Part shown: positions 24,314 through 60,742 of the stretch, piece by piece
Position numbering within the stretch: position 1 is the first letter of the stretch
Layout of the letters: every line of letters begins with the position of its first letter
Source: Thelephora terrestris
Lineage: Eukaryota; Basidiomycota; Agaricomycetes; Thelephorales; Thelephoraceae
Length of the DNA: 64,000 nucleotides
Direction of reading: 5' to 3'
NCBI GenBank assembly: GCA_015956445.1
Contig: WIUZ02000003.1
Coordinates: forward strand, 558,001 to 622,000
Program-made: the position numbers and the translations under genes
Notes under the pieces: generated by a model
Database searches by the model: none
The model's input: the letters and a program-made list of their open reading frames with translations, nothing else
Told to the model about the DNA's origin: nothing

Positions 24314-26427
24314 ATGGGCCCACGGTATGCTTGCATACGGCCATGCCGGGAGGGGTGGAACAAGCCCGGCCCCTTCAACCGGCACCAAAAGACATGCGTG
24401 CATTGGCGCGCACATGAAGAGAAGATGCAGAGGCGGCGAGCAGAGGCCGCAGCAGCACGGCCGCCCAAGAAGCAAAAGAAAAATTCGGTATGATACGTTT
24501 AGTTGTTCTCGTAACAAAACTGTCTTAACTATTTGCAGGAGGGGCCGAGTGCAATGCAAACTCCAACTGCAGTGGATCCAACCTTTAGTGACACAGATGT
24601 GCTTATGCCTGGAGCATACCACGAGGAGCCTCCATTGGACGAACCGCCAACCAACATGACAGACATGGCGGTCTCACTCACAGAGCCAACGGCGCGACTG
24701 CAACGGACTCAACGAGTCCCAGCACGGTTCCAGGACATCCTTCCTGAACCTCCTCGAGCCGTTCCAGCATTACTCCGGCTTCCAGCCGTCTATCTACTGG
24801 TTACGGACCCACTGAGGACAGCACTGAACAGCTTCGGACTGTTTCGCCAATACCTCTTTCATCCTTCTCACGATCCTGACGCATTTGTTGACCCTAGTGA
24901 TCTCTCGAACCTCACCACTCAGGCACTTCCTCCCTTAACTCCCTCACATGCAGAAAAGGTGGAGCACGACCCCCCCTGGCCATTTGCAAATATGTCGATT
25001 TGGAGAACGATGCGATGGTTGAACACCGGAAGCAGTTCCAAGTCAGAGGGTGAAGTCAATCGCTTTGTTGACGACGTTCTCAAAGCTCCCGATTTTCGTG
25101 CTGAGGACCTCCGCAACTTCAATGCCCGCCGTGAAAATGGCCGCCTGGATGAAGCCGACAAAGCTGCACTGCTCGGCGATGGTTTTCAAGCGGCCTCGAT
25201 TACAATTGAAGTCCCCACCGGTCAACCAGGCAATTTGTCAACTTCCCGCACATACTCGGTCCCTGGACTCCATTACCGGAAGCTCATAAATGTCGTCAAG
25301 GCTGCATTCCAGAGTCCCTTATCACGACAATTCCACTTCACGCCGTTCGCCCTCATGCACCGATCACCGATCACAAACGAAGAGCAACGGATATATGGCA
25401 AGCTCTATAACTCGGACGAATTTATTAACGAACACAAACGAGTCCAAAATCGTTCGCCACCCCCACTCAATGACCCAGGATGCAGACTTGAGAAGGTCGT
25501 TGCTGCCCTAATGTTCTGGTCTGACTCGACTCACCTTACGAATTTCGGGGTTGCAAAGCTCTGGCCAATATACTTGTTTTTTGGAAATCTATCTAAGTAT
25601 ATTCGGTCACGCCCGTCTTCTGGAGCTTGTCATCACCTTGCCTATATCCCATCGGTATGTACTCTGAATACCTGTGGCACACATTCTCACCCACATATTT
25701 TGCAGCTCCCTGATTCGTTCGAAAGCTGGATTTCTAGCTGGCACCCCAAATGGGATACTCAGCGAAGTCAGCTCATGGCCCACTGTTGGCGTGAACTCAT
25801 ACACGCTGTCTGGAAGTACATTCTTGACGCCGATTTCATCCATGCCATGAAATATGGAGTTGTTATCACATGCCACGACGGGATCAAACGCCGAATTTAC
25901 CCACGAATATTCACTTATTCCGCCGACTATCCCGAAAAGTGAGTCAACTATTTCTTCCTACACCAATCACTATCAACGGTTCCCAGGGTTCTACTGGCAA
26001 CAATTCGTGACAATGGGCTCTGCCCGTGTCCTCGCTGTCTGATGCCAAAGACACATCTTGATCGAACAGGATGGGTCCACGACCTCAACTTCAGAACAAA
26101 CAGTGTTCGCCAGTACCTTCATACAAAGATACAAGCGGCACGAAGTTTCATCTATCAGTTGGGCCATGCTGTTGCAGGTGCTCGTGTTGACGGTTTGCTG
26201 AAGTCGACATCTTCTGTACCAACACTTGTGAGTGAACTCCTGTTCCAGCATAAATCCACATGGCTCAATCAACTATACTCCAGAACTCCTTTTGTGAACA
26301 ACTTGGACAGTTGGGGAAGGAATTTAATGTTTCCCAGATGATGGTAGTTGATCTTCTACACGAATTTGAGCTTGGGGTCTGGAAGGCTGTCAGGGCCACT
26401 CTACCCCAACAACTACCAGTTCACTGA
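24314..26427 (+). pseudogene. Plavaka transposase, 5' two-thirds
   Basis: Exons 24314-24487, 24539-25654, 25706-25938 and 25987 onward join in frame. A C2HC finger opens the protein (CIRPC...HQKTC), then GLFRQYL, PWPFANMSIWRTMRWLNTG and LHYRKL. The transposase core follows: LEKVVAALMFWSDSTHLTNF, AKLWPIYLFFGNLSKYIRSR, HHLAYIPS, YGVVITCHDGIKRRIYPRIF, TYSADYPEKVLLATIRDNG, LCPCPRCLMPK and VVDLLHEFELGVWKAV. Similarity stops just after this, near 26395-26427. The missing C-terminal third lies at 32137-33715 and 39343-39652 in the same strand and order. The frame is open throughout; the damage is by insertion. Confidence 0.85.
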
Positions 26428-27693
26428 GCCGACTCCGCAGAGTACTCACTAGTCCAACTAGCTTGTGAGAGAACGATCACGTCTCTATTCTTCCGGTAGG
26501 TTGTCCGAGGTCACTACAAGTCAGGTCGAAATCCTAAAGAGAAACCCAACCTAAACCGTACTTTGTTTGGTTTAACGCGCAAGGGTTTATCCCTACAACA
26601 GGATTGATGACTCCACCAGTTGATCGACTGGACGCTCAAGGTGTTCTAATATGACTGCTGGGAGTCTATAGTTACGAGGCGCAGTTGAGGCGCAGAGCGG
26701 GAGGGAGAGCAGATGGGGATGTCTTGGATCAAACAAGAAACTCTGACTTGTCCTTAACTGCAACTGGGCTGAGAAGGGCAGAGGATTTCCTGAGGTAACA
26801 AAACTAAGGTACTACAATACAGCCACAGTTGCTACTTATACTAAAGGAGTGGCCATGACGTTAATACCCTAATATACCCTTATCAAGTCCAGAACAAAGG
26901 GAGATAAGGAGTGTGAGAACGCTAAGTAAGGGAAGCGAACAAAGGTGACGCGTGGGAGAATAAAAGACAAAGGGCCTTACTAGCGTGTGAAGGATTGCAT
27001 AAAAGATAACAAATGTCCACATGAAACATAGGGGTAAAGATAACACTAGTCCTAAAAGAAATAGGGGCATGGGTCATGAAAGTTCGTACCTGGGGATCAC
27101 ACCCAAGGGTCAGGTGGAAACCTCCCATTGTTTCGTGCAATTTTCGAGCGGCTCCGGGATAAGGGACCATGCAGCATCCCTTGTTGTCTGTAGGCGGTAA
27201 CAGCATCACGGACAAGTGGTAACCTCAACGTACGTCCAAACATGAGGAGGTCGGGCCTAGACTCATGGGACATGAGGGATTACAGATTCGCCGGTGTTTC
27301 ACGCTAACGGCTACTCCACATGCGCTGGGCTAACCAGAAGGATCCTAAGGCGATGCTTCCGAATAGTGGCGAGTCCTTCCTCCGGTTAGGAGACTGTGAT
27401 GTGACTGTCCACGTGTGTGATCAGGGTCCAGGGTTGATCGTAATCGTAAAGTCATGAGGGGTCGTAAAAGGGGTTCGTGATGTCATAAAGGGGTCATCAG
27501 GGTCTTGAGACCTATTTTTAGTGCGCGCGCGTTCCAGGCGTTCCGGAACGAAGTTCTTCCAAGGCCGTCCCGCGGGCCGAGGTGTCAGCTTGATGTAGTA
27601 AGCCAACGATGATGGTACAGGGGCGGAAGTTGATGTGACCAGGACCAATGAGGTTCGTCGAGGTAGGTCACGTGAAGGATCACCGATCTAGGC
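26428..27693. other. Left part of the first insertion in Plavaka; no gene seen
   Basis: About 1.27 kb without supported coding sequence, between the Plavaka break and the promoter of the coiled-coil gene. It may be the left non-coding end of the inserted unit. I looked for a copy of this sequence at 31684-32130, as expected for long terminal repeats, and saw none. Confidence 0.4.
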
Positions 27694-27766
27694 TATAAGA
27701 AGGACGTCTTCTTGGAGCCATCCTTGATCAGCAACACCAGCAACTTCCCCATCATCTTACCAAAAC
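27694..27766 (+). promoter_or_regulatory. Probable core promoter of the coiled-coil gene
   Basis: A TATA-like TATAAG (27694-27699) is followed by a CT/CA-rich leader (CATCCTTGATCAGCAACACC) and ATG at 27767. Spacing is suitable for a TATA box and a short 5' UTR. Inferred from sequence only. Confidence 0.45.
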
Positions 27767-29063
27767 ATGTCCTTTCCCAACAACCATACCTACAAAGTCG
27801 CCAATGGTATCTCCACCATCTCTCGCATCGACCGTCGTGCCGCCGCTCGCAAGACCTATGCCTGTGCAGCGGGGACTCCCTATACCACAGATGACCAGGT
27901 ATGGGGGAGACCTAGAGCTTCGTGTGCTAGCACTAACGCCTTCCTCTAGGTAGAGGTTACGTTCTTTAGGGCGTTGATGTCCTGCTAACGGCTTCTAGAT
28001 ATTGGAGGTTGTCACGGAAGTGGACGCCGAACGTCTCAGGGAGACGATGCCTCATTTGAAGGGGTTAACCTGGGACGATGAACTTTGGGTCCGTATGATC
28101 ATCGCAGAGAAGGTGGCCTTCCAGATGAGGGGTAGGTTCGGAGAGTTGGAGCATCCGATCAAGAAGGAGCTCTGGTACACCCTGTAAAGGGGGATCTACG
28201 ATCAGGACTTATTGGAGCACGGGGCTACCATTCCTCGGGCCGTCCGTCATGCCACTGCTGCCACCTCGTTGTTGTGGTCGCTCGTTCGAGAGGGGGAGAG
28301 TAAGGTAGGTTCTCCGTTTGGATATTCGAGTATGACTCTCGACTAACCAAACTGCCTAGGTTGAACGATTGGAGCGCGAGGTGAAGGAGGCGAAGGCAGA
28401 CGTTTTACGTTTGTCGGCGGAGGGTCTTCAGATGAAGGAGACCTTGGCTGCCTTTCAACAGGGAACGAACGAGGCGTTGGAGGCCATGGTCGCCAACCAT
28501 CAGGAGTTGATCGCCGGGTTGAAGGTTAGGGATAATAACATCAAGGGAGCGTTGGCCAGGAGGGATGAAAAGGTAATGCCTCTTTCATCATTGCTTAAAA
28601 TGATGGAAGCTGACATTTCCTAGACCGAAGAACTCGAGAACGTGGTGGCTGTGTTGACAGCGCAGGTTGAGTCCTTGCAGGACAAGACCTGCAACTGCAA
28701 GGAGGGTCCCAAACTGGTTGGTCAGGGGACAGCCGATGTTCCGTTCGAGTTGGAGTACGTCGACGAGGTGGTACTCCCATCGCCTAACCCGTCGTCCTAT
28801 GCGACGCCTCCGATCGAGAACGCGGTTCCCGTTCCGACTCCGGGTCCGGCTTCCACTTTGGCCGCTTCCGACAAGGAGAACTGTGGGCGCTGCGTCTTGC
28901 AGCCGATCAGTCAGTTGGTGAAGATCGAGGACGAGGTCATGGAGGTTGACCGAGCCAAAGATGCTCCGAGGGTTGCCGAGGTACGTCCGGTGACTAAGGG
29001 GCAACGCTGCAAGCGCTCTCGACGCCGTCCTGCTCATCGTATGTGTCAGGGTTGTAGGCCTGC

Positions 29064-29687
29064 TTACTGTTTGTGGGGCGCTAGAGGATTAGCGGCGGGA
29101 TGAGGGGTGTCGGGCCTGATCTTGAAGGGGGTTCCGGGTGTGGAGACGAGGGGAGGAGGAATATCAAGTGAGAGGGGTGACTCGGTTTGATAAGGATGTA
29201 CGGGTGAGTGGTAGTCTTGGCAGAACTGATTAAGTTGCTGCACAAACGGTTCGAAGTCTTGGTCGCTAAGACGTTCGAAGTTGACGAGATATTCTATAAC
29301 AGAGTAAGGTAGTTCAGCTGGAATTTCCCACCAGAGAACGATAATAGCAGGGGAATGGGTATGGATATTAGTCGTGAGATGAGCGCGTGGAGAGGGAAAA
29401 TAAAAGGCCGGGCTAATACTGAAGTAGACGGTCGCTAGGACGCTCTCAGTAAGATCTGAATTCCAAAGGAATTGATGATCTGCTCCTAATAGAAACGGAG
29501 GGGTGGTGACTCCGGCGTCAAGAGCCGCGAAGGGTCGATAGTATGGGAAGTGAGTAAGTAAACCGGCAGTTCGGTTTACTTGAAGACTTCTGATGAGTTT
29601 ATACTCCCAGATAGATCTTCTGGCGTCGGGGATGACTGGTCGCTGGACGGGGCTGGAGGAGGGAAAAGGGTTAGGGGCGCTGAACAT
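29064..29687 (-). CDS. Element sense ORF (207 aa), copy 1
   Basis: Starts about 75 nt downstream of the AATAAA signal on the presumed LTR sense strand. It opens MFSAPNPFPSSSPVQRPVIP, then DARRSIWEYKLIRSLQ, FAALDAGVTTPPFLLGADHQ, ESVLATVYFSISPAFYFP, SPAIIVLWWEIPAELPYSV and DIPPPLVSTPGTPFK. Length is identical (207 codons) in all three copies, and substitutions are mostly conservative, which suggests past selection for coding. No known family is recognised. The stop codon lies about 20 bp inside the element end. Confidence 0.7.
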   Translation of the reverse strand: MFSAPNPFPSSSPVQRPVIPDARRSIWEYKLIRSLQVNRTAGLLTHFPYYRPFAALDAGVTTPPFLLGADHQFLWNSDLTESVLATVYFSISPAFYFPSPRAHLTTNIHTHSPAIIVLWWEIPAELPYSVIEYLVNFERLSDQDFEPFVQQLNQFCQDYHSPVHPYQTESPLSLDIPPPLVSTPGTPFKIRPDTPHPAANPLAPHKQ

Positions 29688-29757
29688 ACACTGGCAGGAG
29701 GACTCCTGCTAAAATGAGTTAGAAGAGGTAAGGTGTAAGGAGGATTCCTCAGCTTAC

Positions 29758-29838
29758 TTTTATTCAGGTTGTGGGTAGGGGAGTACAGAAGAGATTGAGA
29801 ATGGGGAAAAGAAAGGAGCGAACGCTCTTCCTTATATA
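29758..29838 (-). promoter_or_regulatory. LTR-like TATA box and AATAAA signal, copy 1
   Basis: Reading the minus strand, GGGTATATAAGGAAGAGCG (TATA at 29838-29833) is followed by a CT-rich initiator-like stretch, and AATAAA at 29763-29758. The order TATA, start site, AATAAA within about 75 nt is conserved in the other two full copies (56508-56430 minus; 61021-61099 plus). Confidence 0.65.
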
Positions 29839-30003
29839 CCCAGCTCTCTACAGGAGTCATAATTCTACAAGGAACCAAACGTGCGTAAACATGGTCTGTG
29901 CGTGCTTTAGGGTAGGTTGAATGAGTCGGAGAAAGGGGACTTAGGGCGACGAATGGTAGTGACTAATACGGAGACAATAGGGGGAACGACTGATGGAAGT
30001 ACT

Positions 30004-30117
30004 AGGGGATTTCTTCTGATCGACGGGGATTTCTCTGGATCGACGGGGATTTCTCTGGATTTCGGAAGTAGTAGAAGTATGACGGGGATTTCTCCTGATC
30101 GATGGGGATTTCTCAGG
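30004..30117. promoter_or_regulatory. Cluster of five GGGGATTTCT motifs between divergent promoters
   Basis: Five copies of GGGGATTTCT(C/T) in 114 bp, spaced about 20-40 bp, lie between the sense promoter (minus strand) and the antisense promoter (GTATTTAAG near 30223). Clusters of the same motif occupy the same position in copies 2 and 3. The layout suggests shared upstream activating sites; this is inferred from position and repetition. Confidence 0.55.
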
Positions 30118-30318
30118 TTTTGATGGGATCGCGATTGGGGCTGAGGGTTTGTTTATCCTAATTGGGACTTTAATGGAAAATAGTTATTGTTTTCCCCTTT
30201 TGGGATTCCGTTGAGTCAAGATGTATTTAAGTCAGGGGGATTAATGATCGTTCCCTCCATCATCTCTTTTCCACTCCCACCAAACCAACCACTACTCTCC
30301 TAAACAACCTTCGAAACT

Positions 30319-31080
30319 ATGTCCTCCTTCGTCGCCAGCAACACCGTGCTCAACGCCGCTGCCACCCCCTTTGACTTTACCCCGTCCTTCGAGACGGATG
30401 CTCCCTGCCTCGTGGAGCAACACTTATACGACACTCCTGCTGCCATCGCTCAGGACAACGAGGCGTCCATTAACTTCCTTATGGCCCACAACGCTCCTCC
30501 TCAGTTCTGGGAGGAGGCCGGCTATGAAGACCCCCGTCTGACGGAAGCGGAGTACAACAATCCTATCCGGACTCGTTTGGATCGCCCTGGAGTTCCTCGC
30601 TTGTTGGATGCTATGGAGCGGGAGAGGGAAGATAGAATCCTTAGGCTGGAGAAGAGGATGGATACCATGTACGTGGTCGTTAACAGTTTGAACGAGGATT
30701 TCTCTCACTTTGCTTTGGAACATTGGGGACCCTTCCAGGCATCTCTCTTCCGGTACTTCGGTCATCAATGCCGAGGGGCTTATTGCACCGACCCCCCTTG
30801 CAAGTCCCCAGTCATCCCTTCACCACCGCCAGGATCAGGGCATTCCTCTCCCTCCATCCCCTCCCTGGAGTCCTGCCCCAGTTCGTCAGATGGTGGAGCG
30901 GTCCCAGAAGAAGAAGAACCGCAAGAATCCGATGACTCGTTCTGGTCAACGTTGTCGTCCCTCCGACAAGTCACGTCAGGTTCGGATGAAGTTGAAAGTG
31001 GAAGTGGCGGGTCTCCAGGACCGCTATGGATTCGCCTTAGTGAGTGCAGCCTTGTCGGACGTGAAGCGGGAGATGCATGA
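30319..31080 (+). CDS. Element antisense ORF A (253 aa), copy 1
   Basis: ATG 30319 lies about 95 bp after a TATTTAAG box and a CA-rich leader, so it probably has its own promoter. Blocks shared with copies 2 and 3: AATPFDFTPSFETDAP, EQHLYDTPA, FLTAHNAP/FLMAHNAPPQFWEEAGY, a coiled-coil stretch MEREREDRILRLEKRMD, then VVVNSLNEDFSHFALEHW and FRYFGHQCRGAYCTDP. A Ser/Pro/Glu-rich tail follows. It overlaps ORF B in the +1 frame from about 30710. Function unknown. Confidence 0.65.
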   Translation: MSSFVASNTVLNAAATPFDFTPSFETDAPCLVEQHLYDTPAAIAQDNEASINFLMAHNAPPQFWEEAGYEDPRLTEAEYNNPIRTRLDRPGVPRLLDAMEREREDRILRLEKRMDTMYVVVNSLNEDFSHFALEHWGPFQASLFRYFGHQCRGAYCTDPPCKSPVIPSPPPGSGHSSPSIPSLESCPSSSDGGAVPEEEEPQESDDSFWSTLSSLRQVTSGSDEVESGSGGSPGPLWIRLSECSLVGREAGDA

Positions 31081-31246
31081 TAGTCTATATCATGATGTAT
31101 TGGGGTGTAGGGAATGTTGGCAGGATCCGGTAACGCGGGCGTGGTCTTATTGTCCTGAGAGTGTTCATAACCCTCATCATTTTGCTCATCGTTGTCCTCT
31201 TCCTCAGTACTGCCCATGTGATGTCGACCCGTTTGTTCTTGTCTGA
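30710..31246 (+). CDS. Element antisense ORF B (Cys/His-rich), copy 1
   Basis: Overlaps the 3' part of ORF A in the +1 frame. It has no obvious ATG of its own at the start of the open frame, so it is probably reached by splicing or frameshifting from ORF A. Basic stretch SQKKKNRKN, then VRMKLKVEVAGLQDRYGFAL, HDVLGCRECW, SYCPESVHNPHHFAHRCP, and QYCPCDVDPFVLV at the end. The C-x2-C / C / H-x2-HH-x2-H-x-C / C-x-C array looks metal-binding. Conserved in copies 0 and 2; copy 3 has an internal TGA. Confidence 0.6.
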   Translation: MLWNIGDPSRHLSSGTSVINAEGLIAPTPLASPQSSLHHRQDQGIPLPPSPPWSPAPVRQMVERSQKKKNRKNPMTRSGQRCRPSDKSRQVRMKLKVEVAGLQDRYGFALVSAALSDVKREMHDSLYHDVLGCRECWQDPVTRAWSYCPESVHNPHHFAHRCPLPQYCPCDVDPFVLV

Positions 31247-31683
31247 GTTTGTAGTTCTTTCTAATTATTTTTGTACTACTATTACTGCGAATAAGACCAA
31301 TGTCTTGGATTACTTGAGAGATCTTGGTTAATATGTCACGCGTTCGTGACAGTATGACCGCGTCGGCTAACCCTTACCCTTGACCAGTTGAGTCGGATGG
31401 TGACCTCTCTGGTCGAGGTGGGGGACGAGAGTTCCGCTATCGAGTCAACCGTCCCTACCGACAGGTCGAGTCGGAGATCCAGCTTCGCCACCAGCTACAA
31501 CTCGCAAGACAGGATTCCGCCCAGGGGTCCGATGAGGGAGACGGAGGGTCGCTTGCCGACTACGTCGACAGTACTGTCGAGCAGTCACCCGGTGATGGAG
31601 ATGTGGGACCAGGTGTTCAGCAGTTCGGTGACATCTGGGAGGCTGATCGGTCCGCTCGAAGGTATCTCTTCCTATCGGCTTGA

Positions 31684-32136
31684 ACTAGTCGTTCAGCTGA
31701 GTGCCGAAGATGGTGACGCCATGTTCGGGGAGGTTCTTGCGAGGAGGGGCCAGCACTACGATCTCCGGGATGGACAGTTGATGACCTTCAGGCCTGCCGT
31801 AGATAGAGTCGACTTTTGATGAGATTAGGATAGCACTTGTATAGCTCGTTGTGGCTTCGCTGAGAATAGTACGCGCGTGTGTGTGTTTCGAATGATTGGT
31901 GTGAAGGATAAGGAGTGTGAAGCATTCAAAACATAAGAAATGATAAGAAGAGTTCGAAGAAAGAGCGTGTTATAAAAAGTTTAAAAATACCATGTTCCTG
32001 ACAAAGGTACTTTTCATTCACTTGATCAGGATTCTCCATGCGGCGTCGGAAAGGCCAGGTATATTAGTGGATATTTTAAACACAAGGTACATATGATATG
32101 AACCCGGCAATATGTGTGCTCACATCATCCGAACAG
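31684..32136. other. Right part of first insertion in Plavaka; no gene seen
   Basis: AT-rich, non-coding, between the last exon of the coiled-coil gene and the resumption of Plavaka. The right junction of the insertion should lie here, before about 32097, where a decayed Plavaka exon end and intron appear to resume (ATGAACCCGG, then ATATGTGTGCTC). Confidence 0.35.
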
Positions 32137-33715
32137 ATTCCGCCAGGTTCCGACTTTTGGCCGCTTTACGATACGGCGTTTTCATAACAACGTGTCAGAC
32201 ATGAAAAAACTTGCCGCCCGTGATTTTGAGGACATTCTACAGGCAAGCTCCATCTCCCCTCCATTTCTCATATTCACGAGGTTATTGAAATGACATTCTG
32301 TTGGCCAGTGCTCTATCCCTATATTCGAAGGCCTCCTCCCTGAACCGTTCAACCGGATGCTACTACGGTTGTTATACAAGGCTGCGGAGTGGCACGCGCT
32401 TGCGAAGCTCAGGATGCACACTGAATCAACGCTGGATCTACTGGAAGCGGTTACCAAGGACTTCGGCCGCCTCATGCGACAGTTCCGTGATAAAACTTCG
32501 GAAACATTTGAAACTGTTGAGCTCCCCCGTGAAACAGGCACACGAAAAGGAGAGGGAGGCTCTTCAAAGAAGACGCTGAACTTGAACACGTACAAGTTCC
32601 ATGCACTTGGAGATTACGTCGCGACTATCCGTCAGTTCGGGACCACAGACTCATACTCAACACAAGTGGTGAGTTCCACAATTTGTTATATTGTTTGCTG
32701 CATCGAAGCCTGATTCCATCCAGGGAGAGCTTGCGCATCGCCTTGTCAAGCGACTTTATGGGCTGACGAATAAAAAAGACGCCCCCGAACAGATCTCACG
32801 TCGTTACCGTCGGGCGCATCACTTCGGTGCATCAGAATCGTGTGATCCTTCCCAGGGAGGCACCATGGGCGGGCATGATAAAATGGATGGTTTGCCCGAG
32901 CTCCACCACACGATGTCGAACTCTCGAAATGACCCGGTTCAACTGGCCTCGTTTTCGAGCGGCAGCACACAAGATCCTGCGGCAAAGGTGACCCCCGTCC
33001 ACCTGTTTATGCACCAACGTTCTCACCTATGTTCCAGAATTTTATCTATAAGCTTCGCGTCCATCTCCTCAGCCGGCTTCTTGGCAAGGGTCTTGACAGT
33101 GATGACCCTTGTCTCTTCACAGACGAAGAACGGAACTCTGTCCGACTGGTCAATAACACAATGTTCTCGGTTCAGCAGCTCTCTGTGAACTATACCACAT
33201 ACGACGTCCGGCGTGATTGTGACACGATCAACACCACCACTCACCCCTACGTTATGCTACGGTCTCCGGAGGTTGGCGCGAGTGCTCACCCGTATTGGTA
33301 TGCACAGGTTCTGGGGATTTACCATGCCCACGTTTCAACTACTCACCCGGCGGCTCCGAAACATTCGGCTCAACGTATGGAATTCCTATGGGTCCGATGG
33401 CTTGGGATCGAGCCAGGACACCGTTCTGGCTTCAAGACAGCACGTCTCCCAAAGGTTGGGTTTGTCGAAGCTACAGATGAGGACGCGTTCGGGTTTTTAG
33501 ACCCTGATCTTATCATTCGGGGCTCCCACCTCATCCCAGACTTCCATTCAGGGCGGACTTCTGATCTCATGCCGTATGGTGGACCTACTATTGCCCGGTG
33601 TCCCAATGAGACAGACGACTGGACGAACTTCTATGTGAATGTGTGAGTTGCCCCATTAGTCTGAATTCTCGCTTCTTATCTCTCAAAGTTTTGTCGATCG
33701 CGACATGTTTGTGAG
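32137..33715 (+). pseudogene. Plavaka transposase, C-terminal third (part 2 of 3)
   Basis: Continues the gene begun at 24314. FRQVPTFGRFTIRRFHNNVS, MKKLAARDFEDILQ, then a GC-AG intron (GCAAGC..GGCCAG), CSIPIFEGLLPEPFN, AEWHALAKLRMHTESTLDLL, TVELPRETGTRK, LNTYKFHALGDYVATIRQFG, TTDSYSTQ, GELAHRLVKRLY, LRVHLLSRLLGK, TDEERNSVRLVNNTMFSVQQ, VNYTTYDVRRD, HPYWYAQVLGIYHAHV, QRMEFLWVRWLG, and FVDRDMFV at the last exon. The frame is open, and stops mid-codon at the palindromic insertion (AG|G TAC). These blocks are the usual end of Plavaka proteins. Confidence 0.85.
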
Positions 33716-33861
33716 GAGCCCCTTCAGCTATCTTTTCTCCATGGGTCATGGACCATACATCGTGACAATTCTCCATGGGTCATGGGCCATGCAACGTTGT
33801 ACAACGCGTTGTACAACCCATGACCCATGGAAAAAAGATACCATTGTACAACCCATGACCC

Positions 33862-36052
33862 ATGGGTAATGGAATAGTATCCGTTGCCCATGCCCCATGG
33901 GTTGTACAATGGTATCTGTTGCCCATGCCCCATGGGTTGTACAACACTATCTGTTCCCCATGGGGCATGGATTGTACAACGCTATCTGTTCCCCATGCCT
34001 CATGGGTTGTACAACGCTATCCATTCTCCATGGGGCATGGGTTGTACAACCCTATTCATTCTCCATGGGGCATGGGTTGTACAACGCTATCCTTTCTCCA
34101 TGGGGCATGGGTTGTACAACGCTATCCATTTCCCATGGGTCATGGATTGTACAACGCTATCCATTTCCCATGGGACATGGATTGTACAACACTATCCGTT
34201 CCCCATGCCTCATGGGTTGTACAACACTATCTGATTCCCATGCCTCATGGGTTGTACAACACTATCCATTCTCCATGGGTCATGGGTTGTACAATGCTAT
34301 CCATTTCCCATGCCCCATGGGTTGTACAACACTATCCATTTCCCATGGGGCATGGGTTGTACAACACTATCCTTTCCCCATGGGGCATGGGTTGTACAAC
34401 ACTACCCATTCTCCATGCCCCATGGGTTGTACAACGCTATCCATTTCCCATGCCCCATGGGTTGTACAACACTATCTGTTCCCCATGGGACATGGGTTGT
34501 ACAACACTATCTGTTCCCCATGGGACATGGGTTGTACAACACTATCTGTTCCCCATGGGTCATGGGTTGTACAACACTATCTGATTCCCATGCCTCATGG
34601 GTTGTACAACACTATCTGTTTCCCATGGGTCATGGGTTGTACAACGCTATCTGATTCCCATGCCTCATGGGTTGTACAACACTATCCATTTCCCATGGGT
34701 CATGGGTTGTACAACGCTATCTGATTCCCATGGGTCATGGGTTGTACAACACTATCTGATTCCCATGGGGCATGGGTTGTACAACACTATCCATTCCCCA
34801 TGGGGCATGGGTTGTACAACACTATCCATTCCCCATGGGGCATGGGTTGTACAACACTATCCATTTCCCATGGGTCATGCGTTGTACAACGCTATCCATT
34901 CTCCATGGGGCATGGGTTGTACAACGCTATCCTTTCTCCATGGGGCATGGGTTGTACAACGCTATCCATTTCCCATGGGTCATGGGTTGTACAACGCTAT
35001 CCATTTCCCATGCCCCATGGGTTGTACAACACTATCTGTTCCCCATGGGACATGGGTTGTACAACACTATCTGTTCCCCATGGGTCATGGGTTGTACAAC
35101 ACTATCTGATTCCCATGCCTCATGGGTTGTACAACACTATCCATTTCCCATGGGTCATGGGTTGTACAACGCTATCTGATTCCCATGCCTCATGGGTTGT
35201 ACAACACTATCTGATTCCCATGCCTCATGGGTTGTACAACACTATCCATTTCCCATGGGTCATGGGTTGTACAACGCTATCCATTTCCCATGCCCCATGG
35301 GTTGTACAACACTATCTGTTCCCCATGGGACATGGGTTGTACAACACTATCTGTTCCCCATGGGTCATGGGTTGTACAACACTATCTGATTCCCATGCCC
35401 CATGGGTTGTACAACACTATCCATTCCCCATGGGGCATGGGTTGTACAACACTATCCATTTCCCATGCCCCATGGGTTGTACAACACTATCTGTTCCCCA
35501 TGGGACATGGATTGTACAACGCTATCCGTTCCCCATGCCTCATGGGTTGTACAACACTATCTGATTCCCATGCCTCATGGGTTGTACAACACTATCCATT
35601 CTCCATGGGGCATGGGTTGTACAACACTATCCTTTCTCCATGCGGCATGGGTTGTACAACGCTATCCATTTCCCTTGCCCCATGGGTTGTACAACACTAT
35701 CCATTTCCCATGGGGCATGGGTTGTACAACACTATCCTTTCCCCATGGGGCATGGGTTGTACAACACTACCCATTCTCCATGCCCCATGGGTTGTACAAC
35801 ACTATCCAATTCCCATGCCCCATGGGTTGTACAACGCTATCCATTCCCCATGGAGCATGGGTTGTACAACACTATCCATTTCCCATGGGTCATGGGTTGT
35901 ACAACACTATCTATTTCCCATGCCCCATGGGTTGTACAAAGCTATCCGTTCCCCATGGGTCATGGGTTGTACAACGCTATCCATTCCCCATGCCCCATGG
36001 GTTGTACATCACTATCCAATTCCCATGCACCATGGGTTGTACAACAGCATCT
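33862..36052 (+). repeat. 35-bp tandem array, left arm (about 62 units)
   Basis: The unit is CATGGGTTGTACAAC plus ACTATCCATTTCCCATGGGT (35 bp) with limited variation. Each unit carries two perfect palindromes, CCCATGGG (or CCATGGGG-type variants) and GTTGTACAAC, joined by a variable (C/T)ATC(C/T)(A/G)(T/A)TT-like linker. As 35 is not a multiple of 3, any frame passes through all three phases in 105 bp. No phase contains a stop, which creates long spurious open frames of the MGHGLYN type. Unit count is estimated from length. Confidence 0.95.
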
Positions 36053-36249
36053 TGTGCCCATGGGGCATCAGTTGCAGAATGGTGTCCTTTCTCCATGTCC
36101 CATGGATTATATCACTATTCCAGGAAAGGAGATACTTTATAAATCAACCATTAGCTGTGTGAATTTGAAAAAATTAGACTCTGTTTGTATGCATGATAGA
36201 CCATACATCAGTTTGTGGCTCTAACCTAATGGAAACTAAACTTAACCTG

Positions 36250-37300
36250 ATAATAGCCACAACCTAATCCTCAATCTAACCTGAGCCAATGTAAACTTGA
36301 GCCATGAACCTAAGCCTAACCTAATCCTAAACCTGGTCTAATCCCAAATCTAACCCTAACCTGACCTAACCTAACCTAACCTAACCTAACCTAACCTATA
36401 CCTAAACCAACCTATACCTATACTAACCTATACCTAACCTAACCTGGTATGGGCAAACCTAACCTACCTATCATGACCTGTTTCAGCCTAATGTCATGTA
36501 TGCCAGCCAAGACTAACTTCACCCAGTTGCAAACATATGACTTGGGTCACAGGACCATAAAGCAAACTGCAGTCCCCTCACTCTGTGCCCAACCATCCCA
36601 TAAGCCCACAGATGCACAAATATATCATCAGCAACCCAGCATCATGCTTATCACCCATGTTCAACCACAAACCACTCTCACCCTTTGTTCTGTGCCATCT
36701 CACAGACAAACCACAACTCAAGTTCATCCACCTCCTTGGGCCCACAAGCAAGTGGCCTACAAACATATGGTTTATAGACTTATAACATATTCCACACAAG
36801 GATTAATATGGGTGGGTGAGCTAGAGTTTTGGTTAGGCTTTGAGATAGCACAGAACAAAGGGTGAGAGTGGTTTGTGGTTGAACATGGGTGATAAGCATG
36901 ATGCTGGGTTGCTGATGATATATTTGTGCATCTGTGGGCTTATGGGATGGTTGGGCACAGAGTGAGGGGACTGCAGTTTGCTTTATGGTCCTGTGACCCA
37001 AGTCATATGTTTGCAACTGGGTGAAGTTAGTCTTGGCTGGCATACATGACATTAGGCTGAAACAGGTCATGATAGGTAGGTTAGGTTTGCCCATACCAGG
37101 TTAGGTTAGGTATAGGTTAGTATAGGTATAGGTTGGTTTAGGTATAGGTTAGGTTAGGTTAGGTTAGGTTAGGTCAGGTCAGGTTAGGGTTAGATTTGGG
37201 ATTAGACCAGGTTTAGGATTAGGTTAGGCTTAGGTTCATGGCTCAAGTTTACATTGGCTCAGGTTAGATTGAGGATTAGGTTGTGGCTATTATCAGGTTA
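36250..37300. repeat. Inner inverted repeat with CCTAA/TTAGG tracts
   Basis: The left half (36250-36690) and right half (36850-37300) are inverted copies. Each has a run of ACCTAACCTAACCTAACC with degenerate CCTATACCTA extensions (36358-36450, mirrored at 37095-37185). The tract resembles TTAGG-type telomere sequence rather than the TTAGGG usual in fungi. The 82-residue frame MGKPNLPIMTCF..TLCSV appears once on each strand because of the palindrome and is not taken as a gene. Confidence 0.85.
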
Positions 37301-37499
37301 AGTTTAGTTTCCATTAGGTTAGAGCCACAAACTGATATATGGTCTATCATGCATACAAACAGAGTCTAATTTTTTCAAATTCACACAGCTAATGGTTGAT
37401 TTATAAAGTATCTCCTTTCCTGGAATAGTGATGTAATCCATGGGACATGGAGAAAGGACACCATTCTGCAACTGATGCCCCATGGGCACAAGATGCTGT

Positions 37500-39178
37500 T
37501 GTACAACCCATGGTGCATGGGAATTGGATAGTGATGTACAACCCATGGGGCATGGGAATTGGATAGCATTGTACAACCCATGGGGCATGGGAATTGGATA
37601 GCATTGTACAACCCATGGGGCATGGAAAATAGATAGTGTTGTACAACCCATGCACCATGGAGAATGGATAGTGTTGTACAACCCATGGGGCATGGGAATC
37701 AGATAGCGTTGTACAACCCATGGGGCATGGGAATTGGATAGTGTTGTACAACCCATGCCCCATGGGGAATGGATAGTGTTGTACAACCCATGCCCCATGG
37801 GGAATGGATAGTGTTGTACAACCCATGGGGCATGGGAATCAGATAGTGTTGTACAACCCATGACCCATGGGAATCAGATAGCGTTGTACAACCCATGACC
37901 CATGGGAAATGGATAGTGTTGTACAACCCATGAGGCATGGGAATCAGATAGTGTTGTACAACCCATGAGGCATGGGGAATGGATAGCGTTGTACAATCCA
38001 TGTCCCATGGGGAACAGATAGTGTTGTACAACCCATGGGGCATGGGAAATGGATAGCGTTGTACAACCCATGGGGCATGGGAATTGGATAGTGTTGTACA
38101 ACCCATGACCCATGGGGAACAGATAGTGTTGTACAACCCATGACCCATGGGGAACAGATAGTGTTGTACAACCCATGGGGCATGGGAAATGGATAGCGTT
38201 GTACAACCCATGACCCATGGGAAATGGATAGTGTTGTACAACCCATGCCCCATGGAGAATGGATAGCGTTGTACAACCCATGGGGCATGGGAATTGGATA
38301 GCATTGTACAACCCATGGGGCATGGGAATTGGATAGTGTTGTACAACCCATGACCCATGGGAAACAGATAGTGTTGTACAACCCATGCCCCATGGGGAAA
38401 GGATAGTGTTGTACAACCCATGCCCCATGGGAAACGGATAGTTGTACAACCCATGGGGCATGGGAAACAGATAGCATTGTACAACCCATGACCCATGGGG
38501 AACAGATAGTGTTGTACAACCCATGACCCATGGGAAACAGATAGTGTTGTACAACCCATGAGGCATGGGGAACAGATAGCGTTGTACAACCCATGCCCCA
38601 TGGAGAAAGGATAGCGTTGTACAACCCATGCCCCATGGAGAATGAATAGGGTTGTACAACCCATGACCCATGGGGAACGGATAGTGTTGTACAACCCATG
38701 ACCCATGGGGAACGGATAGCGTTGTACAACCCATGGGGCATGGGAATTGGATAGCGTTGTACAACCCATGCCCCATGGAGAATGGATAGCGTTGTACAAC
38801 CCATGACCCATGGGGAACAGATAGTGTTGTACAACCCATGGGGCATGGGAATTGGATAGGGTTGTACAACCCATGACCCATGGGAACTGGATAGTGTTGT
38901 ACAACCCATGCCCCATGGAGAATGGATAGTGTTGTACAACCCATGCCCCATGGAGAAAGGATAGCATTGTACAACCCATGACCCATGGGGAACGGATAGC
39001 GTTGTACAACCCATGGGGCATGGGAATTGGATAGTGTTGTACAACCCATGCCCCATGGGGAAAGGATAGCATTGTACAACCCATGAGGCATGGGGAAGGG
39101 ATAGTGTTGTACAACCCATGGGGCATGGGCAACAGATACCATTGTACAACCCATGGGGCATGGGCAACGGATACTATT
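37500..39178 (-). repeat. 35-bp tandem array, right arm (about 48 units, inverted)
   Basis: Reverse orientation of the left-arm array, same 35-bp unit and same variant set. One unit near 38440-38450 is shortened (GGATAGTTGTACAACCC lacks five bases). The number of units differs from the left arm, so the arms have expanded or contracted independently after the palindrome formed. Confidence 0.95.
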
Positions 39179-39342
39179 CCATTACCCATGGGTCATGGGT
39201 TGTACAATGGTATCTTTTCTCCATGGGTCATGGGTTGTACAACGCGTTGTACAACATTGCATGGCCCATGACCCATGGAGAATTGTCACGATGTATGGTC
39301 CATGACCCATGGAGAAAAGATAGCTGAACCCTGTGTTGTGAG

Positions 39343-39652
39343 GTACCTTGGTGGAGGGGTTGGTCACCTTAAACGGTTCCCCCCCGCAGACAGCGACAAC
39401 GAAGACGCAGCTGCGCACAACAACGACACCATCGAAGTCGAACCAGATGAATTTATTGCAAATAGGAACTCTACCGAGCACAACAGCAGCGATGAAGGGT
39501 ACGAAGGCGAGGAAGATTATGAAAGTGAGGAAGATGATAGAGACAACAATGAGGGTGAAGGGGACGAAGATGATGGAGAGGACGAAGAGGACGAAGGAGT
39601 CGAGGATGCGGCAGATGATGTCTTAGATGAGGAAACTGGGAATGTATATTAG
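39343..39652 (+). pseudogene. Plavaka transposase, C-terminal tail (part 3 of 3)
   Basis: Immediately after the right TTGTGAG the frame resumes: (R)YLGGGVGHLKRFPP, directly continuing FVDRDMFV from 33715, then an acidic tail (EGEEDYESEEDDRDNN, EDEEDEGVEDAADD) to the stop at 39652. Plavaka proteins typically end in such acidic tails. No further damage is visible, so the palindrome may be a recent insertion. Confidence 0.85.
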
Positions 39653-54368: not shown

Positions 54369-55729
54369 GACAACACGCGTTGAGTGTTTTTAGCTCGCAG
54401 TGCAGGAGATCTGTGGCAGGGGGCGTGACTGGTTGGACGAAACCAGCTTTTGTTGCGCGTGACGACTTGATCAACGAGCGGAAGAGCATGATGGTGAGAG
54501 AGGGGGGATTTTAAGGAGTTATAAATGTTCGACCACCCTTGGACCACCCCCATTGGCGTTGATTGACATCATGCATTTGACATCAGCCTGACCATATTGG
54601 TCAATCCCCAGTATTGGCCTCACCCCGTGATCTCACACGTGCCTACCCCTAATAAGAGTCCTCGGAGTCGTTGCACTCTCGTTGCTATCTCGTCGACTCG
54701 CGGAACCTTGGTTCCATATCCCGCTGTCACTTGCAATCTATCCGGAGCGTACACGTACACGAGCCTGTGACTGCTTGCAAGCGACTGGTCGTAATCAGCA
54801 GAGTTGGTTCGACTAGAACTCTGCCTGGTTTGTGCTGGCTTCAAAGCTCAGGCTTCCTCACCGTGGCCACAATGTCGGTGGTAAAGACGCTCATGTCCTC
54901 TTTGACAGGTACTTTCTCAAAGCCATCTCTTGCCATTTAACCCAATACTAAGCAGTTGAACCCGGTCCAGCGTACGAACTGTTTGCTAGCAGGCTTTGGC
55001 ACAGGATGAGAGTCAAAATAAAGCAGTCGTTCCATGGAGGTACCTCAAAGGTGTCCACTGCATCTCCGTCCCTGATTACCAAATTACCACAAGACCTGGT
55101 GGAGGTAATCATCTCCTACTTCATATACAACACGTCCACTCTTCTTGCATGCTCAACGACTTGCTACTCATGGTACATCGCTTCTGTCCCTCATCTTCAT
55201 CACTCCCTCATGACCTACAACTCGGACCGGGAGTACGCATGGCCCAAACTGCTTCAACAATCATACAAGCTCAGTCTGCTTCCACTTGTCAAGCGGTTCC
55301 GATTCCGCGTGCACGTCATTGGGTTCACTCCCAAACTCCTCAACAGTCTCACTCTGCGTTACTTTTCTGCACTCACGAACCTCCAGGATCTTGGAATAGA
55401 TCATCTTCAGGTCTTCGCCTTTATGCCAATCATTCAACAGTGCTTTGGACACTTATTGCCAAAGCTTCAATTCCTTGCACTCAAAGAGCCTAAGGACACC
55501 TGTTGTCAGCTTTTGTATTTCATTGGACTTTTCCCGAACCTTCAAGATCTTAAGCTTCACTGCTGCAGGTCTATTGGCGAGCCAAAAGCCCCAGCTGATG
55601 CAACGCTCATCCCCCTCTCCACACCCCCACTGCGAGGGTGGTTAAGGCTTGTTTGTTTTAAGGAGGATGAGATTGTGAAGGACATGGTCACCCTTTTTGG
55701 GGGACTTTGTGTCAGGGTTGTGGGCCTGC

Positions 55730-56353
55730 TTACTGTTTAGGGGACGCTAGAGGATTAGAGGACGGGTAGGGAGTGTCTGGTCGAACGTTGAAGGGGGTTC
55801 CGGGTGTAGAGACGAGAGGAGGAGGAATATCGAGTGCGAGTGGCGACTCGAGCTGATAGGGATGGATGGGCGAGTGGTAGTCCTGGCAGAACTGACTTAG
55901 TTGCTGAATGAACGGGTCAAAGTCTTGGTCGCTGAGACGTTCGAAGCTAACGAGGTATTCTAGAACAGAATAAGGTAATTCAGTTGGAATTTCCCACCAC
56001 AAGACAATAATAGCTGGAGAGTGGGTGTGAACGTTGGTAGTGAGGTGAATGCGAGGGTTGGGAAAGTAGAAGGCCGGACTTATACTGAAGTAGACTGTCG
56101 CTAGGACACTCTCAGTAGTGTCTGAGTTCCAAAGGAACTGATGATCGGCTCCTAGAAGGAAAGGAGGAGTAGTGACTCCGGAATCAAGGGCTGCGAAGGG
56201 GCGATAATACGGGAAATGGGTTAATAAACTGTTGGTACGATTTATTTGTAGGCTTCTGATGAGTTTATACTCCCAGATAGACCTTCTGGCGTCGGGTATG
56301 ACCGGGCGCTGAATAGGACTGGTAGAGGGGAACGGATTTGGGGCCCTGAACAT
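55730..56353 (-). CDS. Element sense ORF (207 aa), copy 2
   Basis: Same length and layout as in copy 1 (MFRAPNPFPSTSPIQRPVIP; LLGADHQFLWNSD; SPAIIVLWWEIPTELPYSVL; DIPPPLVSTPGTPFN). Differences from copy 1 are scattered and mostly conservative. No stops. Confidence 0.7.
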   Translation of the reverse strand: MFRAPNPFPSTSPIQRPVIPDARRSIWEYKLIRSLQINRTNSLLTHFPYYRPFAALDSGVTTPPFLLGADHQFLWNSDTTESVLATVYFSISPAFYFPNPRIHLTTNVHTHSPAIIVLWWEIPTELPYSVLEYLVSFERLSDQDFDPFIQQLSQFCQDYHSPIHPYQLESPLALDIPPPLVSTPGTPFNVRPDTPYPSSNPLASPKQ

Positions 56354-56673
56354 ACACTAGCAGGAATATTCCTGCTTAAATGGGTCAGATAAGAAGTAAT
56401 ACGTGAGGAGGATTCCTCAGCTTACTTTGTTTATTGAGAGTTAGGTAGAGGAGTACAGAAGAGATTGAGAGTGGGGAAAAGAAAGGAGCGGACACTCTTC
56501 CTTATATACCCAGTCCTCTACAGGAGTCATTATTCTACAGCGAACCAAACTAGGGTCAACATGGTCTGTGCGTAATTTAGGGCAGGGTAAATGAGTCAGA
56601 ATAAGGGGACTTAGAACGATAGATGGTAATTACTAATACGGGAACAATAGAGGTACGAGTTGATGGAAACATT

Positions 56674-56768
56674 CAGGGATTTCTCGCGTTTCATGGTAGC
56701 AATAGAAGCGTGATGGGGATTTCTCTGGATCAATGGTAGCAATAGAAGTGTGATGGGGATTTCTCTGG
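56674..56768. promoter_or_regulatory. GGGGATTTCTC motif cluster, copy 2
   Basis: Three (A/G)GGGATTTCTC motifs, within a repeated block (AGCAATAGAAG(C/T)GTGATGGG) lying between the divergent promoters of copy 2, the same position as in copy 1. Confidence 0.5.
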
Positions 56769-56974
56769 GTTTGATGGGATCGTGTTTGGGGCTAAGGGTT
56801 CGTTTATCCTAATTGGGACTTTAATGAGTGATGTCTTATTGTTTTCTTTTCTTGGCGTCCCTTTGAGTCAGTCGTATATAATCCAGGGGGATTATTGGTC
56901 TTTTCCTCCCATCGTCTCTTTTCCCTTCCCACCAATACTACCACCACTTCCCTTCTCAAATCATCTTTGCCACT

Positions 56975-57703
56975 ATGTCTGATTATGCTACCAACGCCGC
57001 TCTGCTCAATGCTGCCGCCACCCCCTTTGATCTCTCCCCGTCCTTCGAGACGGATACTCCTTTCGTCGTGGAAGAACACCTTTACGACACCCCCGCCAAC
57101 ATTGCCCATGACAATTGGGTTGCCGTGGAGTTCTTGACCGCCCATAATGCGCCTGCCGTATTCTGGGAGCAGGCAGGGTATGAGGACCCCAACAGGACTC
57201 GCAGATGGTCTCCTGGAGTCACTCCAATGCAGGACGCGATGGAACAAGAGAGGGAGGACAGGATCTTGAAGTTGGAGAAGAGGATGGACGTTATGTATGT
57301 CGTCGTCAACAGTCTCAACGAAGACTTTTCTCACTTTGCTTTGGAACACTGGAAACCTTTCCAGGAATCTCTCCTCAGGTACTTCGGTCATCGATGCCAT
57401 GGAGTGTACTGCACCGATGCAGCTCCTCACTCCCCCGTCGTCCCTCCGCCGTCTCCAGGACCAGGGAGTCCCTCTTCCTCAGTCCCCTCCTTGGAGTCCT
57501 GTTCCGAATCGTCAGTTGGTGGAAAGAACCCAGAAGAAGAGTCGCAAGAGTCCGATGACTCGTACTGGACAACATTGTCGTCCCTCCGACAAGTCACGGC
57601 AGGTTCGGATGAAGTTGAAGGTGGAGGTAGTGGGTCTCCAGGACCGCTATGGGTTCGCATTGGTGAGCGCGGTGTTGACGGACGTGAAGCGGGAGATGTA
57701 TGA
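56975..57703 (+). CDS. Element antisense ORF A (242 aa), copy 2
   Basis: ATG 56975, about 100 bp after a TATATAATCC box (56874). MSDYATNAALLNAAATPFDL, EEHLYDTPANIAHDNW, FLTAHNAPAVFWEQAGYED, MEQEREDRILKLEKRMD, VVVNSLNEDFSHFALEHW, FGHRCHGVYCTD, then a Ser/Pro/Glu tail. It overlaps ORF B in the +1 frame. Confidence 0.65.
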   Translation: MSDYATNAALLNAAATPFDLSPSFETDTPFVVEEHLYDTPANIAHDNWVAVEFLTAHNAPAVFWEQAGYEDPNRTRRWSPGVTPMQDAMEQEREDRILKLEKRMDVMYVVVNSLNEDFSHFALEHWKPFQESLLRYFGHRCHGVYCTDAAPHSPVVPPPSPGPGSPSSSVPSLESCSESSVGGKNPEEESQESDDSYWTTLSSLRQVTAGSDEVEGGGSGSPGPLWVRIGERGVDGREAGDV

Positions 57704-57869
57704 TAGTTTGTTTCACGACGTGTTGGGGTGCAGGGAGTGCTGGCAGGATCCGGTGACGCGAGCGTACTCGTATTGTCCTCAAAGCGTCCACAACCCTCAC
57801 CACTTTGCTCATCGCTCTCCGTTTGCTCAGGACTGTGCTTGTGACGTGGACCCGTTCGTTCTTGTTTGA
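57297..57869 (+). CDS. Element antisense ORF B (Cys/His-rich), copy 2
   Basis: +1 frame relative to ORF A, open from about 57297 to TGA 57869. Basic RTQKKSRKSP, VRMKLKVEVVGLQDRYGFAL, HDVLGCRECWQDP, SYCPQSVHNPHHFAHRSP (one Cys replaced by Ser), QDCACDVDPFVLV. The same Cys/His array occurs in copies 0, 1 and 3 with small changes. Confidence 0.6.
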   Translation: MSSSTVSTKTFLTLLWNTGNLSRNLSSGTSVIDAMECTAPMQLLTPPSSLRRLQDQGVPLPQSPPWSPVPNRQLVERTQKKSRKSPMTRTGQHCRPSDKSRQVRMKLKVEVVGLQDRYGFALVSAVLTDVKREMYDSLFHDVLGCRECWQDPVTRAYSYCPQSVHNPHHFAHRSPFAQDCACDVDPFVLV

Positions 57870-59509: not shown

Positions 59510-59670
59510 TTGGGTCCTGTGCCGAGTGCACAGCCCATGTGCCATCGCAGAGTATCTCCCCAAGCATGTGTCACGAACGCGTGACATGTTGAAGAAAATC
59601 GCACAAGTTATTCAAGACATTGGTCTTATTTGCAGCCGTCGTAATAATACAAAGGGAAATAAGAGGAATC

Positions 59671-60532: not shown

Positions 60533-60742
60533 AGTTCAAAGGTTGTTATAAGAGGGAAGAGTTGTTGTGGATTGGTGGGGAGTGGAAAAGAGACAATGGG
60601 GGAAAAGACGAAGGTAACCCACAGCCTAAATATGTCCCGATCAATGGACAACCAAAACAGGTAATGACAATGCACCATTATTCATTATTGTCCCAAAAAG
60701 GATAAACGAACCCTCAACCCTAATCACGACCCCATCAAATCC

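Follow-up and report, generated by a model that had tools for sequence, protein, structure and literature searches.

In the window (the whole 64,000-nucleotide stretch of Thelephora terrestris DNA analysed here), positions 33716-39335 are a foldback DNA transposon of 5.6 kb that is complete and was inserted recently. It is nearly all one giant hairpin and is located within a transposon gene. The element has about 60 relatives in the same genome, and its plan is that of the animal Foldback elements (FB, Tm1, Tetris and Galileo). These copies very probably form a non-autonomous, foldback-type transposon family of about 60 members, mobilised in trans by a transposase producing 7-bp duplications, with the palindrome being renewed by recombination between its arms.

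Regarding the insertion site, TTGTGAG occurs six times in the window, and two of these copies bracket the element exactly where the original prediction had placed them (Table 1). An uninterrupted paralogous copy, representing the empty site, is found at C6:481540-481800, carrying a single TTGTGAG and being identical to the joined element flanks at 260 of 261 bases. After removal of the element, the flanks read FVDRDMFVRYLGGGVGH, and together with the C6 copy this bears out the claim that excision restores the reading frame. The interrupted gene, which we take to be a Plavaka gene from its motif and the assignment made by the earlier reader, gave no Pfam match in the piece tested (32933-33646). 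The element itself differs from Plavaka transposons, which have 2-3-bp duplications and TGT..ACA or CATCA..TGATG tips, in both features.

Table 1. Features of the foldback element and of the gene that it interrupts (window coordinates).
Feature	Position	Strand	Evidence or remark
Interrupted gene, upstream part, ending ...FVDRDMFV	32933..33715	+	Sequence and joined-flank translation; start provisional
Target site duplication, left copy, TTGTGAG	33709..33715	.	Sequence match and family flank comparison
Tip A, GAGCCCC, asymmetric outer motif	33716..33722	+	58 exact GAGCCCCTTCAGCTATC genome-wide
A-arm outer terminal inverted repeat, beginning TTCAGCTATCTTTTCTCCATGG, with doubled GTTGTACAAC inside	33723..33877	+	
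A-side array, 35-bp units, 62 spacings of exactly 35 bp	33878..36068	+	TRF, anchor spacing
A-side inner arm, non-unit, including CCTAA-type repeats	36069..36695	+	Outer bound approximate
Central loop, unpaired, 152 bp	36696..36847	.	Both orientations relative to the ends across the family
B-side inner arm	36848..37496	-	Outer bound approximate
B-side array, 35-bp units, 47 spacings of exactly 35 bp	37497..39173	-	TRF, anchor spacing
B-arm outer terminal inverted repeat	39174..39328	-	
Tip B, inward CACAGGG (+ strand CCCTGTG)	39329..39335	-	51 exact CACAGGGTTCAGCTATC genome-wide
Target site duplication, right copy, TTGTGAG	39336..39342	.	Sequence match and family flank comparison
Interrupted gene, downstream part, RYLGGGVGHLKRF...	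39343..39600	+	Joined-flank translation and C6 empty copy; end provisional

The two arms are long, inverted and internally repetitive, and they surround a short loop, whose measured length agrees with the unpaired centre of about 150 bp expected beforehand. In the repeat search, 35101-36732 pairs with 36811-38442 at 92%, and the innermost 327 bp of the A-side inner arm are perfectly complementary to the B side. TRF detected both arrays with a 35-bp period (also as 70/105 bp); their units contain the two palindromes foreseen, TTGTACAA and CCATGNNNCATGG. Counting GTTGTACAAC as an anchor, 65 copies are present in the A arm and 51 in the B arm, which with the exact 35-bp spacings makes the predicted figure of about 62 and 48 units correct. 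The description of the arms as mostly 35-bp units is right for the arrays, but each arm also has a non-unit inner arm of 0.6 kb. The 7-bp tips have no inverted-repeat relation to each other, the inverted repeat starting only after them.

A genome-wide search for the terminal sequence, as had been proposed, returned 146 matches to a 29-base end pattern (≤3 mismatches), and none to the reversed control. The 50 tabulated elements total 240,698 bp, corresponding to 0.59% of the 40.6-Mb genome. When their flanks were first paired (n = 50), 43 showed an exact 7-bp duplication, four had one mismatch and three had none; two of the latter prove exact once the outermost end is used, and with one more element added the outermost-flank comparison (n = 51) comprises 46 exact duplications, four differing by one base and one without. 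Other insertions with target duplications were thus found as anticipated, but their length is 7 bp, never longer, in the 51 comparisons, instead of the suggested 7-9 bp. The usual element has arms of 35-bp units, then the 0.6-kb inner arm and the 152-bp loop, and the smallest (C12:449822-450280, 459 bp) still carries an exact duplication. Arms are unequal and variable in unit number: across 13 elements, the exact 35-bp spacings in an arm range from 6 to 78.

Artefactual long inverted duplications are well known, and could be invoked here if an adaptor had been missed in sequencing or reads had been misjoined. This origin is extremely improbable, as neither unit number nor sequence is the same in the two arms, the 7-bp duplications are exact at 46 of 51 elements, an empty site exists at C6, and the asymmetric tips are constant across the family. 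That constancy is partly due to selection, because the tips served to find the elements; the tip-free 29-base pattern gave its 146 matches against 109 exact 17-base tips. Palindromes with kilobase arms rank with the most unstable DNA, and this family shows how one genome lives with very long ones. With 0.59% of the genome in such elements, exact duplications at most of those compared and one empty paralogous site, long reads could directly measure, in one organism, how stable the palindromes are, how loops invert and how arm lengths change.

As read from the sequences, loops have flipped and arm lengths have changed repeatedly in the family. In the closest sister, C38, the arms are collinear where aligned (5,030 of its 6,631 bp), with direct exact matches of 632, 1050, 778 and 586 bp, and the loop is inverted inside an 806-bp exact match. 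Relative to the window element, C38 is 175 bp (5 units) shorter in the A arm, and in the B arm it exceeds it by 1,186 bp, or about 34 units. Among 37 elements, the loop is oriented as in the window element in 12 and oppositely in 25, departing from 1:1, and the orientations are scattered over the core tree (11 changes compared to 10.4 in shuffles), at least four changes being forced by well-supported branches. This tree kept C1_534 and C8_885 (one confirmed end each) and C58_1459, which form long branches, as well as C12_1196, with its odd left end. An opposite orientation may also be an assembly error in loop placement. The original view of well-preserved arms holds for the unit motifs and the 35-bp spacing, but not for copy number or loop orientation.

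Arms swapping along with the loop was considered and is not the rule. Within the top 25 related array pairs, 11 are of opposite loop orientation, and the best match is A-A/B-B in eight of them, A-B in two and a tie in one. For all 162 opposite-loop pairs the excess is small (85 A-A/B-B versus 52, with 25 ties), and the 189 same-loop pairs gave 82 versus 66, with 41 ties. The two arms of one element resemble each other beyond chance: own-arm exact runs were longer (mean 193 versus 104, permutation p 5e-5) in nine elements. These are the 10 of 13 in which each arm carries 430 bp or more of array, minus C38, dropped as the sister. Own-arm similarity ranked first in six of the 10 elements, and sixth in L054. 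As a proposed mechanism, the arms of one element would pair and recombine between or during jumps; an exchange within the loop-proximal stem would invert the loop, an unequal exchange would alter the unit number and conversion would keep both arms alike, so that the palindrome would be renewed and not lost. It is a rather doubtful extension of this proposal that loop flipping belongs to the life cycle itself, an arm-paired hairpin or cruciform intermediate re-setting loop orientation and unit number at each mobilisation or repair; if true, the family would naturally document how a eukaryote processes palindromes and, with KDZ/Kyakuja as its transposase, would be the first foldback lineage assigned to an enzyme outside MULE and P.

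The unit motifs are well conserved: of 883 units of exactly 35 bp, 856 retain an intact TTGTACAA and 845 an intact CCATGNNNCATGG, the motif positions having been picked after the conservation was seen. Diverged relatives sharing the 13-bp tips keep both unit length and motifs, and there CCATG is the sole unfiltered test, as TTGTACAA and CATGG served to select their units. These palindromic arrays would offer a series of putative binding sites to a protein that binds DNA as a dimer, either the transposase or a host factor. It is quite unlikely that the units act structurally instead, as cruciforms or hairpins, for example, by forming a hairpin RNA that feeds silencing or a replication barrier. 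The 105-nt stretch at 34010-34114, as single-stranded DNA, does fold better than its shuffles (z -4.6, 0/200), but Rfam returned no RNA family match, and no unit showed compensatory changes restoring the 10-bp palindrome (none changed at both sides, a weak count with about three expected by chance; 90 were altered at one side and 30 at the other). Selection on dyad symmetry itself consequently gets no support.

No fungal element of such architecture was named among the papers listed by a limited literature search covering few subscription papers, in agreement with the original prediction, but the plan is known outside fungi (Tm1, Tetris and Galileo); as far as that search goes, foldback transposons would extend to fungi. 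Tm1, a Mutator/Foldback element of Meloidogyne root-knot nematodes, shares the asymmetric 7-bp outer motifs, the variable number of tandem repeats, the unequal arms, the lack of a clear target consensus and the non-autonomous copies, whereas its duplication is usually 9 bp (8-10), its units are 13-15 bp and a transposase-bearing group exists (PMC3169594). In contrast, the present family has 7-bp duplications, rigid 35-bp palindromic units and arms of up to 3.7 kb, and the copies read gave no transposase-bearing partner. Galileo, from the P superfamily of Drosophila, is reported to have long, internally repetitive inverted repeats and 7-bp target duplications; its exchange among copies, inversions and chimeric copies with non-matching 7-bp flanks are counted as alike (PMC3573991). 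Tandem repeats in its arms contain sites bound by the THAP domain of its transposase (PMC3688188). Galileo differs in that its P-type transposase is known. Tetris, a Drosophila virilis foldback, is similarly non-autonomous, with tandem repeats in inverted arms and its autonomous partner not found, but has 220-bp units and 8-10-bp duplications (PMC4079207).

As for the mobilising transposase, domain matches across the genome number 125 for KDZ, two for MULE and three, weak ones, for hAT. The 7-bp duplication fits the P superfamily (Galileo-like) and also hAT7; by coordinates, none of the three hAT matches lies within an element, the one at C8:347211 being 10 kb from one. MULE/Mutator duplications are 8-11 bp, typically 9, compared to 7 bp here. 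Membership of the MULE/Foldback lineage proper, alongside nematode Tm1 and FB of Drosophila but with the duplication shortened, is unlikely for the family. Tm1 has the same plan (PMC3169594), and most foldback elements have been placed in Mutator (PMC4079207), but the duplication never exceeds 7 bp (n = 51), against 8-10 in Tm1 and Tetris. Neither of the two MULE matches lies near a listed element end, so the autonomous MULE with the same ends that had been expected has not appeared so far, although the Pfam model might miss FB-type transposases.

Mobilisation by a Kyakuja/KDZ transposase is a plausible, unproven possibility, and a tentative one. Two Kyakuja families of agaricomycetes have 7-bp duplications and no TIRs, their tips not being inverted repeats, as reported (PMC12730594). 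The duplication length matches, KDZ is abundant in this genome, with intact copies for example at C12:1779732 and, at an equal score, C34:2488697, and the window element resembles Kyakuja in that its two tips do not form an inverted repeat. Against this, the Kyakuja tips given there are 5'-CA..TG-3', whereas those found here are 5'-GA..TG-3' from A to B, or CA..TC reversed; a long TIR follows the tips in the window element; and no KDZ match lies between any A and B end by the listed genome coordinates. In addition, the KDZ match at 5448-6246 of the window is not bounded by family tips (≤1 mismatch) with an exact 7-bp duplication. The reported Kyakuja families encode a transposase and TET/JBP, and foldback arms go unmentioned in the portion seen (PMC12730594).

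For the non-autonomous family favoured here, an autonomous partner was sought through 17-base tips (≤2 mismatches), exact 13-base tips and four long copies. Isolated 13-base matches at two places, C1:3357625, close to a KDZ gene, and C56:683942, were rejected, as they are gene-like onward and lack the family terminal repeat; no second end was matched in the 4 kb beyond the C1 KDZ gene. A coding copy may sit among four long copies (C12:2147932-2160409, C12:2795298-2805799, C16:574536-583215 and C23:836841-844347), in which no KDZ, MULE or hAT match falls by coordinates. The four long copies read, on C3, C10, C58 and C60, hold no transposase of the family and carry nested inserts instead. In the C3 copy (C3:1089954-1100535) there is a 1514-aa ORF, presumably Copia-like by its appearance. 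The C58 copy (C58:1459026-1468098) contains a repeat also present at 26386-32003 of the window, and a related insert is found in both the C10 and C60 (L059) copies.

The foldback DNA transposon lying inside the interrupted transposase gene of the window is a genuine, recent insertion. It had been noted that TTGTGAG stands on both sides and that removal of the element restores the reading frame, and both points are borne out, as the duplication is present on each flank and the joined flanks translate across the junction as ...FVDRDMFV|RYLGGGVGH... When the junction-spanning peptide was compared with the genome, an uninterrupted gene copy was found at C6:481640-481753 (95% identity, residues 6-43), where the DNA of the empty site equals the joined flanks at 260 of 261 positions and holds a single TTGTGAG. 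Inward from each tip, the 7-bp motif gives way to the terminal inverted repeat and then to the array of 35-bp units; an inner arm of 0.6 kb comes next, before the unpaired loop. The arm with tip A measures 2980 bp and the arm with tip B 2488 bp, having 62 and 47 exact 35-bp spacings, respectively. The ORFs inside the element are open frames, mostly running through the repeat, and Rfam at gathering cut-offs gave no match in the element.

Features of the window element and outermost-end duplications of three related elements with duplicated internal ends
Feature	Position	Sequence or size
Whole element	window 33716-39335	TTGTGAG flanking each side
7-bp outer motifs, each read inward		tip A GAGCCCC; tip B CACAGGG
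Terminal inverted repeat, common to both arms, inward of the 7-bp tips		starts TTCAGCTATCTTTTCTCCATGG
Loop	window 36696-36847	152 bp
Related element	C45:1953348-1961949	CGCTACA
Related element	C12:2654800-2658892	GACAAAG
Related element (added)	C12:2528108-2533657	ATCAGGC on both flanks

The element belongs to a high-copy foldback family that is new and, as far as limited literature searches show, without an earlier fungal example: none of the literature matches listed names a fungal foldback element of such kind. In the genome from which the window comes, 40.6 Mb in 60 contigs, a 29-base end pattern with up to three mismatches gave 146 matches, compared to 0 for the reversed control. The exact 17-base tips occur 58 (A) and 51 (B) times and the 13-base tips 63 and 59 times, at least two of the 59 lacking the terminal repeat and resembling gene sequence. 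Together, the 50 tabulated elements cover 240,698 bp; their median length is 4450 bp, and with nested inserts counted they extend from 459 to 10,582 bp. Only one has a changed tip (CACATGG), a constancy partly due to selection, because the elements were located by their tips. The smallest, of 459 bp, has no room for the core, yet its duplication is exact; therefore, the core seems not to have been required for past movement.

Regarding the flanks of these 50 two-ended elements, 43 show an exact 7-bp duplication, four have one mismatch and three have none. Two of those three have duplicated internal ends, and their outermost ends give exact duplications. With the added element, and leaving out C12:2147932-2160409 and lone ends, the outermost flanks are exact in 46/51, differ at one base in 4/51 and lack a duplication in 1/51. 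The original prediction of further insertions with 7-9-bp duplications holds as to their wide occurrence but not as to the range, no duplication being longer than 7 bp. No strong base preference is evident among the 47 duplications counted. Ends are also tandemly duplicated within one element at C12:2532043/2532850/2533657, in 807-bp steps, and further internal duplications occur at C1:534292/535799, C45:1957813/1961949 and C12:2658755/2658892, the junction CCCATG|GAGCCCC being repeated at C1, C12 and C45.

Repeated inversion of the loop is the most unusual property of the family. The closest relative of the window element, C38:27753-34383, is identical over 632 bp from tip A and beyond this matches exactly, in direct orientation, over 1050, 778 and 586 bp on the two sides of the loop, while the loop itself matches in the inverted sense only, inside an 806-bp exact inverted match (5,030 of 6,631 bp compared). 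Since the loop alone is inverted, with direct matches on either side, an exchange within the perfect stem adjoining it is indicated. Relative to the window element, the A arm of this relative lacks 175 bp, a difference of exactly 5 units, and the B arm has 1,186 bp more (about 34 units). Among 37 elements, the loop has the same orientation relative to tip A as the window element in 12 and the opposite in 25. On the core tree, this label requires 11 changes, which is not below the shuffle mean of 10.4-10.5 (a value as low came up in 402-403 of 500 shuffles). At least four changes are imposed by well-supported branches. The loop appears to have inverted repeatedly, the orientations being those of the assembly alone, where errors in loop placement may account for the differences.

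Swapping of the arms together with the loop is not general. In 351 pairs of 27 elements, the 11 opposite-loop pairs among the 25 most related match best A-A/B-B in eight, tie in one and match best A-B in two; the counts are 85, 25 and 52 for all 162 opposite-loop pairs and 82, 41 and 66 for the 189 same-loop pairs. Within elements, the longest exact A-B array runs average 193 bp, compared to 104 bp with B arms permuted (nine elements, p 5e-5), and an element's own B arm ranked first in 6/10, second in 2/10, and third and sixth in the other two. The distance between the longest run and the loop is 645-678 bp on both sides in three elements (L040, L046 and L050). Arm similarity, loop flips and changed unit number fit recombination between paired arms, where the arms of a single element would recombine, resulting in sequence exchange, loop inversion and an altered number of units.

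TTGTACAA is preserved without change in 856 of the 883 exact 35-bp units taken from 13 elements, and CCATGNNNCATGG in 845. On average, the 18 motif positions deviate from the consensus in 0.4% of cases and the remaining positions in 22%, a purely descriptive contrast, as the motif positions were picked after conservation was seen. Three diverged relatives (L059, L060 and L061) have identical 13-bp tips and 37 inward units, 28 of them distinct and none in common with the main family; the 35-bp length and the motifs recur, and CCATG, unused in picking these units, deviates at 1 of 185 letters. In the 10-bp palindrome, no unit is changed on both sides, about three being expected by chance, with single-side changes in 90 and 30, a pattern that speaks against selection for the dyad symmetry itself. 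The units are proposed as candidate binding sites, because the arm repeats of Galileo contain binding sites for its transposase (PMC3688188).

Of the long copies, four were read, and none shows an evident transposase. Domain matches in the genome number 125 for KDZ, two for MULE and three (weak) for hAT, none lying by coordinates between listed A and B ends; the autonomous MULE with these ends, as originally suggested, was not recovered among them. Kyakuja elements of agaricomycetes are reported to have 7-bp duplications, as the window family does, no TIRs and CA..TG tips (PMC12730594); since the family has GA..TG tips instead, it departs from Kyakuja in a stated feature, and a Kyakuja/KDZ link is only a lead. 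The nematode Tm1 shares the overall plan and asymmetric 7-bp outer motifs but has a 9-bp duplication rather than 7 bp (PMC3169594). In Galileo, as here, duplications are of 7 bp and arms undergo exchange, and chimeric copies occur as well (PMC3573991). A partly stop-broken KDZ match lies at window 5448-6246 (+), not bounded by foldback tips. Several KDZ matches occur within about 20 kb of contig ends (C1, C7, C10, C11, C17, C21, C22, C59 and C60), a possible subtelomeric preference.

The sole element without a duplication, C18:89772-93154, has CCGGTCC on its left and CTCTCTG on its right flank. On the same contig, a lone A end at C18:145123 precedes CAGAGAG, which reads as CTCTCTG on the opposite strand, and the second element is broken off within a unit at 141511. 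These flanks are suggestive of a 52-kb inversion between two elements, or of a transposition using the ends of two elements, as read from the sequence. The 7-bp flanks at C18:93154 and C18:145123 (L087, L130 and L131) match in inverted orientation, 52 kb apart.

Other repeats are also present. A second, unrelated foldback at window 9066-10020 consists of 58-bp units and forms a palindrome of 955 bp, which reaches 93% when aligned with itself. Its CACTG..CAGTG ends resemble those of CACTA/EnSpm, and the 3-bp sequence TCA is directly duplicated at 9064-9066 and 10020-10022; L059 contains a palindrome with similar ends at 1877-2837. A Plavaka transposase domain lies in an ORF at window 24515-25942 (+) (E 3.9e-22). 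Another repeat family occupies window 26386-32003, 55708-57974 and 59568-61819, the copies in the window being 72-77% alike over 2.3 kb, and the core of the foldback at C58:1459026-1468098 carries an inserted copy 92-94% like window 26386-32003.
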